40,712 bases of DNA from a virus. The DNA is taken from positions 1-40,712 of the IMG/VR virus record IMGVR_UViG_3300027734_000134; one strand, written 5' to 3'. This document shows, in pieces, positions 10,737 through 19,412 of the stretch; position 1 is the first letter of the stretch; each line of letters opens with the position of its first letter. The notes under the pieces are model-generated. The model was not told where the DNA came from and did not search any database. It saw nothing but the letters and a program-made list of their open reading frames with translations. A program made the translations under genes and the position numbers.

Positions 10737-10784
10737 TCATGACGGAAATTTAATACTACTTATAAAAGGAGGTTTCCGTCATGA
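10737..10784 (+). promoter_or_regulatory. 12-bp inverted repeat enclosing RBS and start codon of the homing endonuclease gene
   Basis: TCATGACGGAAA (10737-10748) is perfectly complementary to TTTCCGTCATGA (10773-10784). The right arm contains the ATG at 10781. The 24-base loop holds AAAAGGAGG (10764-10772), a near-perfect ribosome-binding site, and TTAATACTACTTATA (10750-10764), a promoter-like element seen again at 27560. A read-through transcript from the primase gene could fold and hide the start codon. A transcript starting in or after the loop would lack the left arm and stay translatable. T4 homing endonuclease I-TevI is controlled by a comparable arrangement; function here is inferred. 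Confidence 0.6.
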
Positions 10785-11365
10785 TTGGAATATATAAAAT
10801 AACAAATGTAATTAACAATAAAATTTACATAGGAAGTTCAACAAGGTGTTTGAATGATAGATTTAGTGTCCATAAATCATTGTTAAACAACAATAAGCAT
10901 CCAAATTCTCATTTACAAAATGCTTGGAATGAGTATGGAAAAGAAAACTTTACTTTTGAAGTAATAAAAGAATTAAAAGATAAAAATTTAGTTTTAGAAA
11001 TGGAAGAACAATTTATACAAGAACTTGATACAACAAATAAAGAAAAGGGGTATAATGTATTTTCTAAAACTAATATTAATCCAATGACTAATAAAAAAAC
11101 AAATGGTATGAAAGGGAAAAAACACTCAGATAATTCCAAACAAAAAATAAAAGAAAACCATGCTGATTTTTCTGGTGATAAAAATGGTAGAGCAAAATTA
11201 AATTGGGATATAGTAAGAGAAATTAGAAAATTATATAAGAAAAATACTTATGGATTAAAAAAAATAGCAAATCAATTTAATATTGGAATTACTACAGTTT
11301 CACATATAATAAAAAACGAAACATGGAAAGAAAAAGAGGTATTTAATGAAAATAGCACACATTAG
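10781..11365 (+). CDS. GIY-YIG homing endonuclease, free-standing
   Basis: This 194-aa protein starts with GIYKITN (residues 3-9) and KIYIGSS (14-20), the GIY-YIG nuclease signature. An Arg/His-containing helix (RFSVHKSLL) and ENFTFEVIKEL with the likely catalytic Glu follow. The C-terminal third (GRAKLNWDIVREIRKLY to GITTVSHIIKNETWK) is a helix-turn-helix/NUMOD-type DNA-binding module typical of phage homing endonucleases such as the Seg family. It probably cuts related phage genomes lacking the gene and spreads itself by repair. It lies between primase and the Mre11-Rad50 gene, overlapping the latter by 20 bp, and is more Lys/Asn-rich and AT-biased than the primase gene, which fits recent acquisition. 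Confidence 0.88.
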   Translation: MIGIYKITNVINNKIYIGSSTRCLNDRFSVHKSLLNNNKHPNSHLQNAWNEYGKENFTFEVIKELKDKNLVLEMEEQFIQELDTTNKEKGYNVFSKTNINPMTNKKTNGMKGKKHSDNSKQKIKENHADFSGDKNGRAKLNWDIVREIRKLYKKNTYGLKKIANQFNIGITTVSHIIKNETWKEKEVFNENSTH

Positions 11366-14300
11366 TGATACTCATGTAAAATTAAATAAATTTCATAAAG
11401 AATATAGAGAAGTATTTTCAAAAATTTACTCAATAATAAAAGAGGAAAAAGTAGATTATGTAGTACATACTGGTGATTTGTTTCACAACAAACTGGCTTT
11501 ATCACCAGAGGCCGTCAACCTTGCAGCAGAATTTTTACAAAACTTAGCAAATATAGCCCCAACTTATATAATTGCTGGTAACCACGACGCAAACTTGTCT
11601 AATAGCGATAGAATGGATGCAATCACACCAGTAGTGAACTTATTAAATCATAAACAACTATTTTATTTAAAAAAATCTGGTGAAACAAACCTAAAAAATA
11701 ATTTTGTTCTTAATGTCCTTTCGGTCTTTGACGAGGAAGGTTGGGTAGAACCCTCTAACCCAGATGCTATTAACATTGCTCTTTATCACGGTTCTGTAAA
11801 CGGAGTAAAGACAGATACAGGATTTGTTCTTGAAAAAGCCGATCACGACGTATCAATCTTTGAGGGTCACGATTACGCTTTTCTTGGAGACATTCATAAG
11901 ACTAATCAGACACTTGATAATGAAGGAAGAATCCGATACCCAGGATCTACTCTTCAACAAAATCACGGTGAGACAAATGATAAAGGATTTCTTATTTGGG
12001 ACATTCAAGACAAGCTCTCATTTGATTGCAGACACGTTGTAATCGATAATCCTAATCCGTTTATCACAGTTGAACTTGAAGAGAACGGAGAGCTTCCCAG
12101 CAACGTTTCAATACCTCCTAATGCAAGACTTCGATTGCTTTCTAGAACCAATCTTCCAGCAGAGATTATGAAGAATGTTGGTGACATAATCAAAGAAAAA
12201 TGGAAGCCAGAAAGTGTTTCTTTTTTATCCAAGAACGTCGCCAGATCAAAAGAATTAAAGGAAAGTGTAGATGGTATTGAAAAAGAAGATTTGCGTAATG
12301 TAAAAGTTCAAGAACAATTAATTGAAGAGTTTCTTATAAACTACAAAGTACCATCAGAAGTATTAGAGAAAGTATTTGAAATTAATAAAAAGTTTAATAC
12401 AGAAGTTGAATCAAAAGAAGAAGTTGCACGAAACATTAATTGGAAAGTTGAATCTCTAGAATGGGATAATCTTTTTAATTATGGTGGTGGCAACAAGATT
12501 AATTTTAAGAATCTGCAAGGTATTGTCGGAATCTTTGGTAAGAATTATTCTGGCAAGTCTTCAGTAATTGACAGTATCCTTTACGCTCTTTTTAATACAA
12601 CTTCCAAGAACGAAAAGAAATCATCAAACGTAATTAATACAGCAAAGAAAAATGCTGTTGTAAATTTAAAATTGTCAGTAGACGATAGTGAATACGTAGT
12701 TGCTCGTACTTGCGAAAAGACAATTAAGAAAGATGGAACAGAAGAAGCTAAGACAGTTCTAAATTTTATTGGTGACGGTGTTTCACTTAACGGAGACTCC
12801 AGAGTACAAACAGATGCAAACATTAAGAAAATGTTTGGAACTATTGATGATTTTATGCTTACATCAATGTCTTCTCAGCTCGACTCACTTTCATTTATTC
12901 GTGAAGGCTCAACGAAGCGCAAAGAGATTCTTGGTAGATTCCTCGACTTGGAAATCTTTGATGCTAAGAATAAATTAGCTAAAGAAGAATCAGCAAGCAT
13001 CAAAGCACTTATCAAGAAACTTGAAGCAACAGATTACGATACTCAAATCTTAAAAGCACAAGATGAAATTGACACAATCAACAACAATACTGAAAGATTA
13101 AAGAATAATGTAAAAGTATCTAATGAAACTCTTGCTAACTTAAAAAGTGAAATTGATTCATTAGATGGGCAACTTAAAAACATAAATGTAGAGTCAATTG
13201 ACATTTCTAAAACAATTGAGAGAAAAGATTATCTTGAAGCCACGCTAAAGAAGGCTGTTAAAGCAAAAGCAGATAAGACAGCAGAAATAGCAAATAGCAA
13301 TACTGATTTAGAAAAGATTATAGAATTTCTCAAAGAGTATGACATTGAAAGTCTAAAGAAAACAAAACAAGGGATTGTTGATTACCAAACAAAACTTTCT
13401 GCAATTACTCAAGATGTTGGATTAAATAACAAAGAAACAAAACATCTAAAAGATAAAATTAAATTGCTTGAAGAAGTTCCTTGTGGTACTCAATTCACAA
13501 CTTGTAAGTTTATTAAAGATGCGATTGCTGCTTCTAACAAAATTGAAAGTCAAGAAGAGAAAACAAATAAGTTAGTTCAAAAACAAAATGAACTTGGTAA
13601 TGTTCTACAGTCTCTAAACCCAGAGACTGTAGAAAGTCAAATTGCTAAGCATCAGCAACTAATAATTAAACAAGCTAATCTTGAGAAACAAATTCTTGAA
13701 TTAAAAGTAGATGTTGAAAAGTTTAATACAATTATTTCTAACATCAACAAGGAAATGAATACTGTTAATGACAAGATTGAACAGTATAAGAAAAACGAAG
13801 AACTATTCAAACAAGTGCAATCACTAACAGAAGATAAATTTGCTAAGCAATCACAATTAAGCAAGTTGGAGAAAGAAGCAAAAGCTGCAAATGATGAACT
13901 ACTATCATCACACATTAGGTTTGGTTCATTGAGTGAAAAGATTCTAGGACTCAAATCCTCTAAAGAAGAATTAGAAAATTATAGAAATGAATTTGCTGCT
14001 TATGATTATTTTATGAAAGCAACAAGTTCAAATGGAATTTCCTATGAGATTATTAAAAAGAAACTTCCAGTAATTAACGAAGAGATTTCAACAATTCTTT
14101 CTAATATTGTAGACTTTCAAGTTTACTTTGAGGATGATGGTTCTAAACTAAACATTATGATTGAGCATCAAAACTCAGAACCAAGACCAATCGAAATGGG
14201 TTCTGGTGCAGAGAAATCAATTGCTGCTATGGCTATTAGACTTTCTATGCTTCAAGTATCCAATCTTCCTAAGTCAAATCTATTCATACTTGATGAGCCA

Positions 14301-14471
14301 GGAACTGCTCTTGATAATGAAAATATGGAAGGATTTATTAGAATACTAGATATGATTAAAAATTATTACGATACTGTTCTTCTTATCTCACACATGGATG
14401 CTTTGAAAGATGTTGCAGATCAAATTATTACAATTGATAATATTGATGGATTTGCAAAGATTACTATTTAG
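11346..14471 (+). CDS. fused SbcD-SbcC (Mre11-Rad50; T4 gp47-gp46) in one polypeptide
   Basis: This 1041-aa protein joins two normally separate subunits. Residues 1 to ~345 are a Mre11/SbcD nuclease: ISDTHVK, HTGDLFHN, AGNHDAN, and YHGSVNG plus FLGDIHK later. Residues ~365-1041 are a Rad50/SbcC ATPase: Walker A GKNYSGKSS (399-406, Lys404), a long coiled coil, an apical Cys713/Cys720 pair, the signature MGSGAEKS (951-958), Walker B LFILDEPG (Asp983, Glu984) and a switch His in LLISHMD. In T4 these are gp47 (about 339 aa) and gp46 (about 560 aa), which resect DNA ends for recombination-dependent replication. ATG 11346 has AGAGGT upstream inside the endonuclease gene. The frame is continuous across the junction, so this is a true fusion in this sequence. 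Confidence 0.92.
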   Translation: MKIAHISDTHVKLNKFHKEYREVFSKIYSIIKEEKVDYVVHTGDLFHNKLALSPEAVNLAAEFLQNLANIAPTYIIAGNHDANLSNSDRMDAITPVVNLLNHKQLFYLKKSGETNLKNNFVLNVLSVFDEEGWVEPSNPDAINIALYHGSVNGVKTDTGFVLEKADHDVSIFEGHDYAFLGDIHKTNQTLDNEGRIRYPGSTLQQNHGETNDKGFLIWDIQDKLSFDCRHVVIDNPNPFITVELEENGELPSNVSIPPNARLRLLSRTNLPAEIMKNVGDIIKEKWKPESVSFLSKNVARSKELKESVDGIEKEDLRNVKVQEQLIEEFLINYKVPSEVLEKVFEINKKFNTEVESKEEVARNINWKVESLEWDNLFNYGGGNKINFKNLQGIVGIFGKNYSGKSSVIDSILYALFNTTSKNEKKSSNVINTAKKNAVVNLKLSVDDSEYVVARTCEKTIKKDGTEEAKTVLNFIGDGVSLNGDSRVQTDANIKKMFGTIDDFMLTSMSSQLDSLSFIREGSTKRKEILGRFLDLEIFDAKNKLAKEESASIKALIKKLEATDYDTQILKAQDEIDTINNNTERLKNNVKVSNETLANLKSEIDSLDGQLKNINVESIDISKTIERKDYLEATLKKAVKAKADKTAEIANSNTDLEKIIEFLKEYDIESLKKTKQGIVDYQTKLSAITQDVGLNNKETKHLKDKIKLLEEVPCGTQFTTCKFIKDAIAASNKIESQEEKTNKLVQKQNELGNVLQSLNPETVESQIAKHQQLIIKQANLEKQILELKVDVEKFNTIISNINKEMNTVNDKIEQYKKNEELFKQVQSLTEDKFAKQSQLSKLEKEAKAANDELLSSHIRFGSLSEKILGLKSSKEELENYRNEFAAYDYFMKATSSNGISYEIIKKKLPVINEEISTILSNIVDFQVYFEDDGSKLNIMIEHQNSEPRPIEMGSGAEKSIAAMAIRLSMLQVSNLPKSNLFILDEPGTALDNENMEGFIRILDMIKNYYDTVLLISHMDALKDVADQIITIDNIDGFAKITI

Positions 14472-14474
14472 TAT

Positions 14475-14843
14475 ATGGCTTTTATATTACAACATTGGAA
14501 ATTAATAGCAGGTATAACATACACAATTGCTATACCTGTTTATTTTAGTATTAAATCTGATAATGCAGTTAAAAATATGGAATCTGCTTTAGATACTTCA
14601 CAACAGTCTAATCAAAAACAAATAAAAGTTTTACAAGATGCTGTAAAAGATCAAAGAGAAGCATATGATAAAATGTTTAAAGATTATCAAGATAAAGTTA
14701 AAAAACTTGAAGAAGACTACCAAAAAGATTTAAAACAAGTTAAAGACAAACAAGTAAAACAACAAAAAGATTTGCAAGAAAGATTTGCTGATCCAAAAGT
14801 TGTTGATAAAGAATTAGAAGAAAGGTTTGGACTTAAAAAATGA
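14475..14843 (+). CDS. small membrane protein with coiled coil, inner-membrane spanin-like
   Basis: This 122-aa protein has a short cytoplasmic start, one hydrophobic segment (residues ~8-26, LIAGITYTIAIPVYF) and then a highly charged Lys/Glu/Gln-rich coiled coil (residues ~40-115). That is the topology of a phage i-spanin (Rz-like), which sits in the inner membrane and spans the periplasm to fuse membranes at lysis. Its stop overlaps the start of the next gene by 4 bp, and that gene encodes a secreted/membrane protein, so the two probably act as a pair. A virion or replication-anchoring role is possible. No lysozyme or holin is recognisable nearby. Confidence 0.5.
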   Translation: MAFILQHWKLIAGITYTIAIPVYFSIKSDNAVKNMESALDTSQQSNQKQIKVLQDAVKDQREAYDKMFKDYQDKVKKLEEDYQKDLKQVKDKQVKQQKDLQERFADPKVVDKELEERFGLKK

Positions 14844-15256
14844 TTACACTATTACTATTAACAAAATTAGCATTTGCACAAGACTATGCACCAATTAAAA
14901 AAGGCGAAGTAGCACCATTATCTGGTACTATTCTCGCTCCTTCTGGTATGGCAACTATTATTGCTAAATGTGATGCAGATACTGCTGAAGCAAAATTAAA
15001 AGGTAAATATGAGTTGGATAAGTTACAAACTGAATGTGACTTAAATGAAGAAAAATTACAATATGATTTAGATTTACAAATTAAAACTAGTGAAGAAATA
15101 GTTGTAATAAAAGATAAAGAATTAGAAAAAGCATACGAAATAATAAAATCAACAAACAAAAATAATACATCACTTTGGATTGGTGTAGGGTTTGCTGCTG
15201 GTATTGCTACATCTTTTGGCTCTATTTATGCTTATGAAACCTTGACAAATAATTAA
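14840..15256 (+). CDS. secreted protein with coiled coil and C-terminal membrane anchor, possible spanin partner
   Basis: This 138-aa protein starts with a short signal-like sequence (LLLLTKLAFAQ, likely cleaved after AFA at residue ~13). A charged, mostly helical region (residues ~45-110) follows, and then a C-terminal hydrophobic segment (SLWIGVGFAAGIATSFGSIYAY, about 22 residues). There is no lipobox Cys at the cleavage site, so it is not a standard o-spanin lipoprotein; Cys residues occur further in. The order (exported N-terminus, coiled coil, C-terminal anchor) resembles a unimolecular spanin without the lipid. It overlaps the preceding gene by 4 bp and ends before a 32-bp gap. Confidence 0.5.
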   Translation: MITLLLLTKLAFAQDYAPIKKGEVAPLSGTILAPSGMATIIAKCDADTAEAKLKGKYELDKLQTECDLNEEKLQYDLDLQIKTSEEIVVIKDKELEKAYEIIKSTNKNNTSLWIGVGFAAGIATSFGSIYAYETLTNN

Positions 15257-15288: not shown

Positions 15289-15996
15289 ATGTCATATTTA
15301 AATACACCAATTCCAGTAGTTGAAGCTTTTGTAAGAGGAAATTTCTTAAGAAACAATGAAGATTCACATGATAAAAAGTTTTCTTGTTATATTTTTGGTA
15401 TGTGTTCAATACCATCACAAGCTCCTTTATTCCACTTTATAATGGAAGATGGAGGTTTGTGGTGGAGAATGCCTATACATGCATTCTGTTGGAAAGAAAA
15501 TGCACCACAACAAGAATTGGATGAATTAGTTTTATGGGATTCTTTTTCTTATCATGTTGGTGTTACTTCTTATCCAATTTTAAAAAATAAAGTAGTAAAA
15601 TTTATTTCAAGAAGAAGGGAAAAATATCAAGGTAAGTATCTTTTTACTTTGGATTGGGCAAGCTCATCAGATGCGTCAGAGACGGATTTTGGATTAAGTG
15701 AATTTCCATCACAACATAAATGTGGTCATTTTATTGCAATGGATAATGGAAATTTTGCAATACAACCAAACAATCGTTTAACTGTTCATGATCCTTCTTT
15801 TACAGTTAAAGAAAATTTAGTAATAAATAGAAAATATAATACTACACTATGGACAGCAGAAAGAAACGCTAGGTGGGTTACCCCAGATACTGACATAATG
15901 AATTATGACCATACAGATTTAAACAATGGTGAATCTAATAAAAAAAGATCTGACACATATAATCAATTAGATAATGAAACTATTAATAAATCATAA
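15289..15996 (+). CDS. conserved phage protein of unknown function
   Basis: This 235-aa protein starts at ATG 15289 behind AAGGA. It is rich in aromatic residues (several Trp, Phe, His), including GGLWWRMPIHAFCW, FISRRREKYQGKYLFTLDWA and HKCGHFIAMDNGNFAIQPNNR. No signal peptide or membrane segment is seen. The strong aromatic and polar conservation suggests a folded enzyme-like or binding protein, but I cannot assign a family. Its stop overlaps the start of the next gene by 23 bp. A weak CTATTTAT element lies inside the preceding gene at 15222-15229 and might serve it. Confidence 0.6.
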   Translation: MSYLNTPIPVVEAFVRGNFLRNNEDSHDKKFSCYIFGMCSIPSQAPLFHFIMEDGGLWWRMPIHAFCWKENAPQQELDELVLWDSFSYHVGVTSYPILKNKVVKFISRRREKYQGKYLFTLDWASSSDASETDFGLSEFPSQHKCGHFIAMDNGNFAIQPNNRLTVHDPSFTVKENLVINRKYNTTLWTAERNARWVTPDTDIMNYDHTDLNNGESNKKRSDTYNQLDNETINKS

Positions 15997-16516
15997 AAAT
16001 ACTATTTTTGATGGTGAAAAGCCTTTACTCCATTTAGAAGCAATTAGAGAAAATGAATCTTGTAAATTTATGTTTGAAAATGGTTGGGTTCCTTTTAATA
16101 ATCTTTGGTATCAAACTTGTTCGTCAAGATTAGAATTAAAACAAATTTCTAATTCAAGAAAAAAACAAGTTGATAAAATTAATATATCTTATAAAACTAA
16201 TAACGATAAAATTTTAATTCCAAAAAATATTGAAGATTATAAAAGTAATAATTACTTAGATTTTTTCTTTGATGATATATTTTGGGGTAGAGTTAATTTT
16301 TATGAAGATCAAATCTTTTATTCTGTTATGAATAGCGTACATCATAAAAAATCTTATGGTACTTTATCTTTTTATTATTTAATTGATAAATATAAAAATA
16401 ATTATAAATATTTATATATAGCAGATTTTTTTGAACAATTTAAATATAAAGCAAACCTTCCAAATTTTGAATTTTGGAATGGAATTAGTTGGGAAAAACA
16501 TGAAAGATCCGAATGA
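15974..16516 (+). CDS. ATE/Bpt-like aminoacyl-tRNA-protein transferase homologue
   Basis: This 180-aa protein matches the layout of bacterial Bpt/eukaryotic ATE1 transferases, which add Leu or Arg from tRNA to protein N-termini and mark them for degradation. Residues 36-68 (NGWVPFNNLWYQTC, then ISNSRKK) follow the family pattern of a GW/GF motif, Tyr, Cys and a Ser-Arg-basic motif. Residues 127-176 (SYGTLSFYYLID, KYLYIADFF, FKYKANLPNFEFWNG) follow the GNAT-fold C-domain pattern SLGT, YLGY, YK and a terminal W. It is shorter than bacterial Bpt (about 235 aa), and only one of the usual N-domain Cys is obvious (Cys49). It overlaps both neighbours. The substrate is unknown and the call rests on pattern reading. 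Confidence 0.6.
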   Translation: MKLLINHKNTIFDGEKPLLHLEAIRENESCKFMFENGWVPFNNLWYQTCSSRLELKQISNSRKKQVDKINISYKTNNDKILIPKNIEDYKSNNYLDFFFDDIFWGRVNFYEDQIFYSVMNSVHHKKSYGTLSFYYLIDKYKNNYKYLYIADFFEQFKYKANLPNFEFWNGISWEKHERSE

Positions 16517-16880
16517 AATTGTAAAAATTGAAAAAGCCATAGCACAAAAATATGGCGAAGATACAATTGCAAATCCAAAACACTACTGGAATGAAGATAA
16601 AGAAAAAGAATATTTAAATCAATTAAAAGAAGTTGCCAAAAAAGAACAACAAAAAGATCAAAAGATTGATGTTGGAGGTCTTTTTATTTCTAAAAAACTA
16701 CTTAATAAAGACAGCAAAAGAAGTTGTCCAGTTTGTCACATTTATTCTTTTGATCTCAATGATGATTTGTATATGAATCGATTTGAATGTTGCAAAAAAT
16801 GTTACATTCAATGGGTTGAGGGAAGAGAAGAAAGATGGAAAACAGGATGGAGGCCAAATGAAAATAACAGTAAGTCGTGA
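16500..16880 (+). CDS. zinc-ribbon protein, conserved phage unknown
   Basis: Starting at ATG 16500, this gives 126 aa and a 17-bp overlap with the ATE-like gene; an open frame reaches further upstream, but only inside that gene. The N-terminal half is charged and helical (KIEKAIAQKYGE, then a Lys/Glu/Gln stretch). Residues ~78-105 hold CPVC and, 21-22 residues on, CCKKC, a four-Cys zinc-binding site. The C-terminus reads WVEGREERWKTGWRPN. A nucleic-acid or protein-binding zinc ribbon is likely. It overlaps the next gene by 23 bp. I recognise the general sequence as recurring in aquatic phages but know no function. Confidence 0.65.
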   Translation: MKDPNEIVKIEKAIAQKYGEDTIANPKHYWNEDKEKEYLNQLKEVAKKEQQKDQKIDVGGLFISKKLLNKDSKRSCPVCHIYSFDLNDDLYMNRFECCKKCYIQWVEGREERWKTGWRPNENNSKS

Positions 16881-17825: not shown

Positions 17826-19412
17826 ATGGCTGTTTACCGACCAACAAAACAACAAATACAATCTGAAATTTTAAAGTGTGGTAAAGATCCAGTTTATTTT
17901 TTAAATACATACGCTAAAATTTCTGATACGCAAAAAGGTCCAATACCTTTTAGAACATTTGAGTTTCAAGATCAAGTGCTAAAAGATATGAAGGACTATA
18001 GATTTAACGTAGTTTTAAAAGCAAGACAGTTAGGTCTTTCTACAATTGTTGCAGGTTATATCGCTTGGTTAATGTTATTTCACAGAGACAAGAATGTTCT
18101 CATTTTAGCAACTAAACTTTTATCAGCATCAAACTTAGTAAAGAAAGTTAAATATATTATTAAGAGTCTACCAGATTGGCTTATGATTGCTGATGTATCT
18201 GTAGACAATAGAAACTCATTTGAACTTACAAACGGTTCTCAAATTAAAGCTTCAGCAACTTCTGGCGATGCTGGTCGTTCTGAGGCTCTTTCTTTACTCG
18301 TTCTGGACGAAGCAGCCTTCATAGAAAATATGAAAGACCTCTGGACAGGTGTTTATCCTACAATGGCTACTGGTGGTCGCTGTATTGCTATATCAACCCC
18401 AAACGGTGTAGGTAACTGGTTTCATCAAACCTATATTGACGCAGAAAGCGGAACAAACGATTTTCATCCAATAAAACTTCATTGGACTGTCCATCCACAC
18501 AGAGATCAAGCTTGGTTTGAAAAAGAAACTAAAAATCTTTCAAGAAGAGAAATTGCTCAAGAATATGAGTGTTCTTTCAATGCATCTGGTGAAACCGTCA
18601 TCGAATCAGACGATCTAGAAAGATTGCACTCAACCTGCAAAGATCCAAAGCATAGAACAAACTCAGATAGAAATTATTGGATCTGGAAAGAGTTTAATTC
18701 AGATCGTTCTTATGTTCTTGTTGCTGACGTTGCTAGAGGTGATGGTAAGGATAATTCTGTATTTCATATAATTGACATTGATTCATTTGAACAAGTTGCA
18801 GAATACCAAGGTAAATTAAGTACAGAAGATTTTGCTAATTTATTAGTAACTGCTGGACGCGAATATGGTAACTGTATGATAGTAGTAGAAAACAATAATC
18901 TCGGCTATTCAGTAGTTGAAAAAATTATTGTTTCTAATTATCCAAACATATATTATTCTACAAAAGGTTCTGGTGATTATGTAGATCAAGTAACTGCCGA
19001 AGGAACTTTAAATACAGTCCCAGGATTTACAACTTCACATAAATCAAGACCATTAATAATTGCAAAATTAGAAGAATTTATTAGGAATAAATCAGTTACA
19101 ATTAATTCATTAAGAACAATAAATGAATTAGATACTTTTATTTGGTCACTAGGTAGGCCACAAGCAATGCAAGGATATAATGATGATTTAGTAATGTCAC
19201 TTGCAATTGCGTGTTGGATTAAAGATACAGTATTTCAAACTAACCAAAGAGAACTAGAATATAAGAAAGCTATGTTGACAAGTCTTGTAAAAACTAATAC
19301 AATGATAGATACTAAAATACCTGGTATGGCTGGCTACAATAAAGACCTATCAATTTCTATAAACGAAGCAAAACAACAATACCAAAATTATTTCTGGGTT
19401 TATAAAGGATAA
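17826..19412 (+). CDS. 17: terminase large subunit (T4 gp17-like)
   Basis: This 528-aa packaging motor has an N-terminal ATPase and a C-terminal nuclease. The ATPase shows the P-loop-like KARQLGLST (residues 65-73), in which the usual GKT lysine is absent and Lys65 sits at the front, as in some other terminases. It also shows Walker B LLVLDEAAF with Asp161/Glu162, and AISTPNGVGN as the coupling region. The RNase H-fold nuclease shows VADVARGDGKDNS (Asp301), VVENNNLG (Glu355) and YNDDLVMSLA (third acid). It cuts concatemeric DNA and drives it through the portal encoded next. It is shorter than T4 gp17 (610 aa). The start at ATG 17826 is 6 bp after the previous stop. Confidence 0.95.
   Translation: MAVYRPTKQQIQSEILKCGKDPVYFLNTYAKISDTQKGPIPFRTFEFQDQVLKDMKDYRFNVVLKARQLGLSTIVAGYIAWLMLFHRDKNVLILATKLLSASNLVKKVKYIIKSLPDWLMIADVSVDNRNSFELTNGSQIKASATSGDAGRSEALSLLVLDEAAFIENMKDLWTGVYPTMATGGRCIAISTPNGVGNWFHQTYIDAESGTNDFHPIKLHWTVHPHRDQAWFEKETKNLSRREIAQEYECSFNASGETVIESDDLERLHSTCKDPKHRTNSDRNYWIWKEFNSDRSYVLVADVARGDGKDNSVFHIIDIDSFEQVAEYQGKLSTEDFANLLVTAGREYGNCMIVVENNNLGYSVVEKIIVSNYPNIYYSTKGSGDYVDQVTAEGTLNTVPGFTTSHKSRPLIIAKLEEFIRNKSVTINSLRTINELDTFIWSLGRPQAMQGYNDDLVMSLAIACWIKDTVFQTNQRELEYKKAMLTSLVKTNTMIDTKIPGMAGYNKDLSISINEAKQQYQNYFWVYKG

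Follow-up and report, generated by a model that had tools for sequence, protein, structure and literature searches.

A divergent phage protein related to ATE/Bpt aminoacyl-tRNA-protein transferases and encoded in near-constant overlap with phrog_3704

The locus and its genes

The window analysed in this work is the whole stretch of 40,712 nucleotides of IMG/VR record IMGVR_UViG_3300027734_000134. It is a fragment of a T4-like phage whose gp17-like terminase (17826-19412) is nearest those of Flavobacterium phage immuto and Microcystis phage Mel-JY01 (43-45%). Of three consecutive genes on the plus strand, the second overlaps both of its neighbours. The first gene (15289..15996, 235 aa) belongs to the phrog_3704 family (T4-GC171; PHROG E=1.2e-51). 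The second gene (15974..16516) is the ATE/Bpt-like gene, which has an ATG start and an intact ORF of 180 aa. The third gene (16500..16880, 126 aa) begins with MKDPNE and encodes a zinc-ribbon-like protein with CPVC...CCKKC. The ORF coordinates place the start of the ATE-like gene 23 nt within the 3' end of the phrog_3704 gene (15974..15996), which is a candidate for translational coupling, and its stop 17 nt within the zinc-ribbon-like gene. The latter is an operon partner in close relatives only, and the same order is found in L002 and L005.

The ATE-like gene is very AT-rich, with a GC content of 21% against 32% for the window, and the strand opposite 15974-16516 is full of stops. The dN/dS of the gene is about 0.17-0.34 against three relatives. 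Since synonymous changes exceed non-synonymous changes among the homologues, the ORF is a real protein under purifying selection.

Other genes were observed upstream in the window. A single ORF of 1041 aa (11346-14471) encodes a fusion of an Mre11-type metallophosphatase and a Rad50-type ATPase, which correspond to T4 gp47 and gp46, and the matching ORF of L005 is likewise one continuous chain. A GIY-YIG endonuclease (10781-11365) is inserted between the DnaG-like primase and this fusion. Two overlapping small genes (14475-15256) are placed like an i-spanin/o-spanin pair, judging by an impression of their sequences; the first has an N-terminal hydrophobic stretch and a coiled coil, and the second has a signal-like start.

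Relatives of the ATE-like protein

The relatives were gathered by scans of viral contigs and form two clades. The short clade (175-205 aa) comprises T4-like phages including the window, and its members share 34-94% identity with the window protein. The long clade (about 255 aa) is found on 190 contigs of HTVC033P/CRP-3-like phages. These phages are unrelated to the T4-like phage of the window; their small terminase is nearest those of Pelagibacter phage HTVC033P and Roseobacter CRP phages. The two clades are linked by tblastn (25-31% identity, E about 1e-6 to 1e-4) and are homologous over their full length in a profile alignment with hhalign (P=2.9e-15). The gap between them is bridged by two intermediates (L184 and L237) and by the outliers L151 and L171. 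The tree of 33 proteins exhibits the short clade, the long clade and bacterial Bpt as one group each with strong support, in a topology with arbitrary rooting and long branches.

No cellular donor was found among 84,980 species genomes scanned with the catalytic half, where the only match was L171. This distant member lies on a contig of a Neomarinimicrobiota metagenome-assembled genome and is apparently phage-derived; ATE_C is absent from 80 Neomarinimicrobiota genomes. The S-Y-G-T motif became N-G-I-T-P in the short-clade members L049 and L051 (5001-5582), so that the G-T of S-x-G-T is lost. Both are possibly inactive paralogues of the family, as judged from this change.

Sequence homology to the ATE/Bpt group

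The window protein alone has no match in Pfam, PHROG or NCBIfam, including ATE_C and the NCBIfam arginyltransferase equivalog. The signal appears among its relatives. Long-clade members score 25.5 and 25.9 bits with ATE_C (cut-off 25), and one of these matches covers model positions 4-119 of 122. The short member L008 scores 20.1 bits (1.1e-3) against the same cut-off. The NCBIfam arginyltransferase model is matched by the long clade (3.1e-10) over model positions 74-237 of 239, where L112 reaches 40 bits against an equivalog cut-off of 205. ATE_N gave no match in any phage member scanned. The Aat family (PF03588) gave no match for the window protein and values of 0.03-0.05, below cut-off, for long members. 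Matches to USP47_C, XFP_C and an ATP-synthase subunit were rejected as weak and composition-driven.

The PDB was searched with a profile of 18 phage proteins from both clades. It returned five matches (E=0.002-0.017), all of which are arginyltransferases; neither a generic GNAT nor an empty result was obtained, as the search of solved structures led to ATE1 chains only. The phage profiles were also compared with seven database Bpt proteins verified by Pfam, for which another Bpt sequence served purely as bait. The comparison gave P=0.014 for the short clade alone, 4e-4 for the long clade alone and 8e-6 for both. The phage gene is thus almost certainly homologous to the ATE/Bpt group and does not resemble it by chance. 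The resemblance to ATE1/Bpt proposed in the initial annotation is backed by the bridging homologues, by the profile search of the PDB and by a confident structural model that has ATE1 as its best match.

Predicted structure

The AlphaFold model built from 31 phage sequences has a pLDDT of 87.6 and a pTM of 0.83. Foldseek against the PDB ranked human ATE1 (8tzv) first with probability 1.00, E=4.4e-4 and TMq 0.55, in a comparison of the kind that the initial annotation had proposed. The TM-scores are moderate because the phage protein is much smaller than ATE1. VipF, yeast ATE1 and the E. coli L/F-transferase follow, FemX ranks lower, and Kribbella GNATs are also among the matches. An earlier model from six short-clade sequences (pLDDT 60.9) also had an ATE1, that of yeast, at Foldseek rank 1 and was too poor for reliance. 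The predicted structure has the ATE fold, in which a GNAT core is combined with an N-terminal domain; in the phage protein this domain is small and beta-rich.

The N-terminal beta-rich part (residues 1-58, 15974..16147, plus strand as for all features below) has invariant H7, G37-W38 and R52 and stands in for the Cys-rich N-domain of ATE. It is followed by a basic helix of sequence N-S-R-K-K-Q-V-D (residues 60-67, 16151..16174), which was assigned by DSSP of the model and by the alignment; the basic residues after R52 are conserved. The basic helix alpha-f of ATE1 inserts into the major groove of the tRNA acceptor arm (PMC10115844), and residues 60-67 are the predicted counterpart of that helix.

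Residues kept and lost

The residues G37, W38, W45, R52, Y158, K159, F165, W168, G170 and W173 are invariant in 31 sequences. Comparison with the seven Bpt proteins identified the G-[F/W] turn (G37-W38), R52, the basic segment next to R52, S-x-G-T (127-130), Y148, Y158-K159, E166 and W173 as kept. R52 (16127..16129) aligns with the Bpt-invariant R73 and is present in all phage relatives. The S-Y-G-T motif (16352..16363) is the counterpart of S-L-G-T in Bpt, Y158-K159 (16445..16450) aligns with the invariant Y-K, and W173 (16490..16492) aligns with the Trp that lies C-terminally in the catalytic domain of Bpt.

The ORF and the residues quoted in the initial annotation are all present, namely G37-W38, Y46, C49, S51-R52 and the basic residues 62-68 in the N-terminal half and S127-Y-G-T130, Y146-L-Y-I149, F156-K-Y-K-A160 and W173 in the C-terminal half. 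They are conserved with the exception of C49, which is T, M, Q, R, K or C in relatives. Since C49 is not conserved, the Cys in that pattern is regarded as a coincidence of sequence. The loss of most N-domain Cys, also proposed there, goes further than stated, as no conserved Cys remains at any of the four Bpt positions. The columns of C19, C63, C66 and C69 hold a gap, N, W and T in the window protein, and its relatives lack conserved Cys there. The Bpt motifs YRP and RH are lost as well, together with D173 and S180, and the short clade further lacks the greater part of the helical segment that follows the basic helix. The tRNA side of the protein therefore looks preserved, and the acceptor side looks rebuilt. 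Since ATE_N and the Cys set are lacking and the window protein stays below ATE_C, its sequence places the protein among divergent variants of the ATE/Bpt kind rather than with canonical Bpt or ATE1.

The loss of the metal site, the presence of VipF and Kribbella GNATs in the Foldseek results and a weak Acetyltransf_1 match of the long member L022 (0.008) would all suit a repurposed GNAT acyltransferase, for example one dependent on acetyl-CoA, whose likeness to ATE reflects only the common fold. We regard this explanation as very improbable. The sequence profiles pick ATE/Bpt over general GNATs, and the basic tRNA helix is retained. The site of the CoA pyrophosphate loop (Q/R-x-x-G-x-G/A) holds K-S-Y-G-T-L in the phage protein, as it holds R-S-L-G-T-Y in Bpt.

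Pairing with phrog_3704

The ATE-like gene has a phrog_3704 gene directly upstream in 80 of 82 distinct ATE-like proteins, in both T4-like and HTVC033P-like phages; the 82 are those among 88 with enough upstream sequence to be scored. The preceding gene of the long clade is a phrog_3704 homologue of 37% identity and likewise overlaps. The stop-to-stop frame distances between partner and ATE-like gene range from -85 to +4 nt, so the genes overlap or abut. The two exceptions are L048, where an overlapping methyltransferase takes the place of phrog_3704, and L151.

The converse does not hold. The ATE-like gene is found at only four of 67 scorable phrog_3704 loci (63 are without it), and none adjoins phrog_3704 in the seven deposited phages examined. 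The dependence runs one way: an ATE-like gene requires the phrog_3704 neighbourhood, and phrog_3704 does not require the ATE-like gene. The adjacency may be co-inheritance.

The phrog_3704 family is widespread in cyanophages and pelagiphages (114 deposited records and at least 588 viral contigs) and has no relative in Pfam or PDB. Many cyanophage records name it purM or ferredoxin (e.g., PSSM2_175 of P-SSM2), although it lacks an AIR-synthase domain. The true PurM of P-SSM2 is the next, overlapping gene PSSM2_176 (AIRS and AIRS_C, E 1e-22 to 1e-24), and the purM name was probably transferred from this neighbour. An oxygenase gene overlaps or abuts phrog_3704 in place of the ATE-like gene in P-RSM4 (PRSM4_037, annotated 2OG-Fe(II)), and similar ORFs are found in L210 and L218. 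The phrog_3704 gene may attract protein-modifying enzymes.

Proposed function

The reading that we favour, which we hold to be evenly poised, is that the phage protein could be a tRNA-dependent aminoacyl transferase of the ATE type acting on or with the phrog_3704 protein. The basic helix 60-67 would dock the acceptor arm of a charged host tRNA. The pocket residues R52, S-Y-G-T, Y158-K159 and W173 would then pass the amino acid to a protein amine or side chain. The cellular enzymes have a metal-bound N-domain and an RH helix that are missing here, and target recognition might therefore have shifted to the co-translated phrog_3704 protein or to its binding partner; alternatively, that protein or its binding partner would be the target. 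It is somewhat more probable than not that the putative enzyme is active. The role of the phrog_3704 protein as putative target or adaptor is tentative. Several observations count against the favoured reading: the window protein matches no family by itself, the short clade taken alone matches Bpt weakly, G-T is lost in L049 and L051, and phrog_3704 mostly occurs with no ATE-like gene beside it. The loss of the four metal cysteines, YRP, RH and D173 counts against it too, as the metal site in ATE1 contributes to stability and RNA binding and probably to the access of peptides (PMC10115844). The donor amino acid is not deducible from the sequence; tRNA genes were found near the ATE-like gene at two loci only, with no consistent Leu or Arg tRNA.

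The protein might instead be an ATE derivative that has lost catalysis and only binds charged tRNA or the acceptor, for example as a decoy, an inhibitor or a chaperone for the phrog_3704 protein. Such a derivative would fit the reduction to 180 aa with the metal site and the RH/D173 residues lost, the absence of G-T in L049 and L051, and a constraint on the ATE-like gene (dN/dS 0.17-0.34) that is weaker than that on its partner (0.02-0.06). However, R52, Y158, K159 and W173 are invariant across very distant phages as in a working site, and we regard a dead protein as distinctly unlikely.

The proteins Bpt and Aat are known to serve the N-degron pathway, which is their established role. The phage protein could in the same way mark proteins of the host or the phage with a destabilising Leu or Arg, for delivery to ClpAP by a ClpS of either origin. 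A ClpS gene (L263, 1441-1713; PF02617, E=2.8e-16, 56 bits) was identified on the 100-kb contig of the relative L141, which carries a short-clade ATE-like gene, and phage ClpS is already known from jumbo phages (PMC7824862). However, ClpS occurs in one of about 20 ATE-bearing records against none of about 10 comparison records, mostly fragments, and this co-occurrence is not significant. The N-domain parts tied to peptide entry in ATE1 are absent from the phage protein. Its constant neighbour is phrog_3704 and not a protease adaptor. A role in degradation tagging is therefore considered unlikely. The pairing with phrog_3704, which the initial annotation had not seen, is a better lead to function.

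The aminoacyl transferase reading can be extended to a dedicated two-gene system of phages, unrelated to degradation, in which a metal-free mini-transferase adds an amino acid to the substrate or adaptor phrog_3704 encoded in the overlapping frame. Unrelated marine and freshwater phages would use this system during infection. We consider the extended form rather doubtful.

Novelty and implications

Searches of 50,697 deposited phage records returned no member of the ATE-like family from any of its clades. The only Bpt matches there, two that are labelled as phage, were rejected as mis-scoped contigs of Acinetobacter chromosomal DNA (ftsK, trxB, aat and Bpt). No report of a phage ATE/Bpt was found in the literature searched, which comprised open papers. 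Since the ATE-like gene almost always overlaps phrog_3704, the findings in this work suggest that marine and freshwater phages have a protein-modification pair not described before.

If the phage protein is active, it is to our knowledge the smallest ATE-type transferase. Its activity would show that the metal-binding N-domain is dispensable, would offer a first way into the function of phrog_3704, a gene that cyanophages and pelagiphages very commonly carry, and would make phage protein modification with tRNA-borne amino acids testable.

Comparison with known systems

The FemX and L-PGS proteins are aminoacyl-tRNA-dependent GNATs that share the fold and the tRNA-helix principle (PMC10115844) with the phage protein. 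However, their structural match is weaker and no sequence relation to them was found here. The E. coli L/F-transferase Aat (PF03588; 2cxa and 2dpt) is also a GNAT-fold aminoacyl-tRNA transferase and ranks high in Foldseek, whereas its sequence signal is weak and confined to the long members noted above.

Bacterial Bpt (NCBIfam PRK01305; Pfam ATE_N and ATE_C) shares with the phage protein the order G-[FW], Arg, basic helix, S-x-G-T, Y, Y-K, E and W, and the long clade aligns with it end to end from the Arg onward. It has about 240-270 aa with four Cys, YRP, the RH helix and D173, whereas the phage protein has 180 aa without them and, unlike Bpt, is paired with phrog_3704. Eukaryotic ATE1 differs in having the C20/C23/C94/C95 metal site and a variable domain, both of which the phage protein lacks at about one third of the length. 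However, ATE1 (8tzv, 8e3s, 7tif and 7wfx) is its best structural match, with both the GNAT core and the N-terminal domain, and is the sole PDB family found by the profile.
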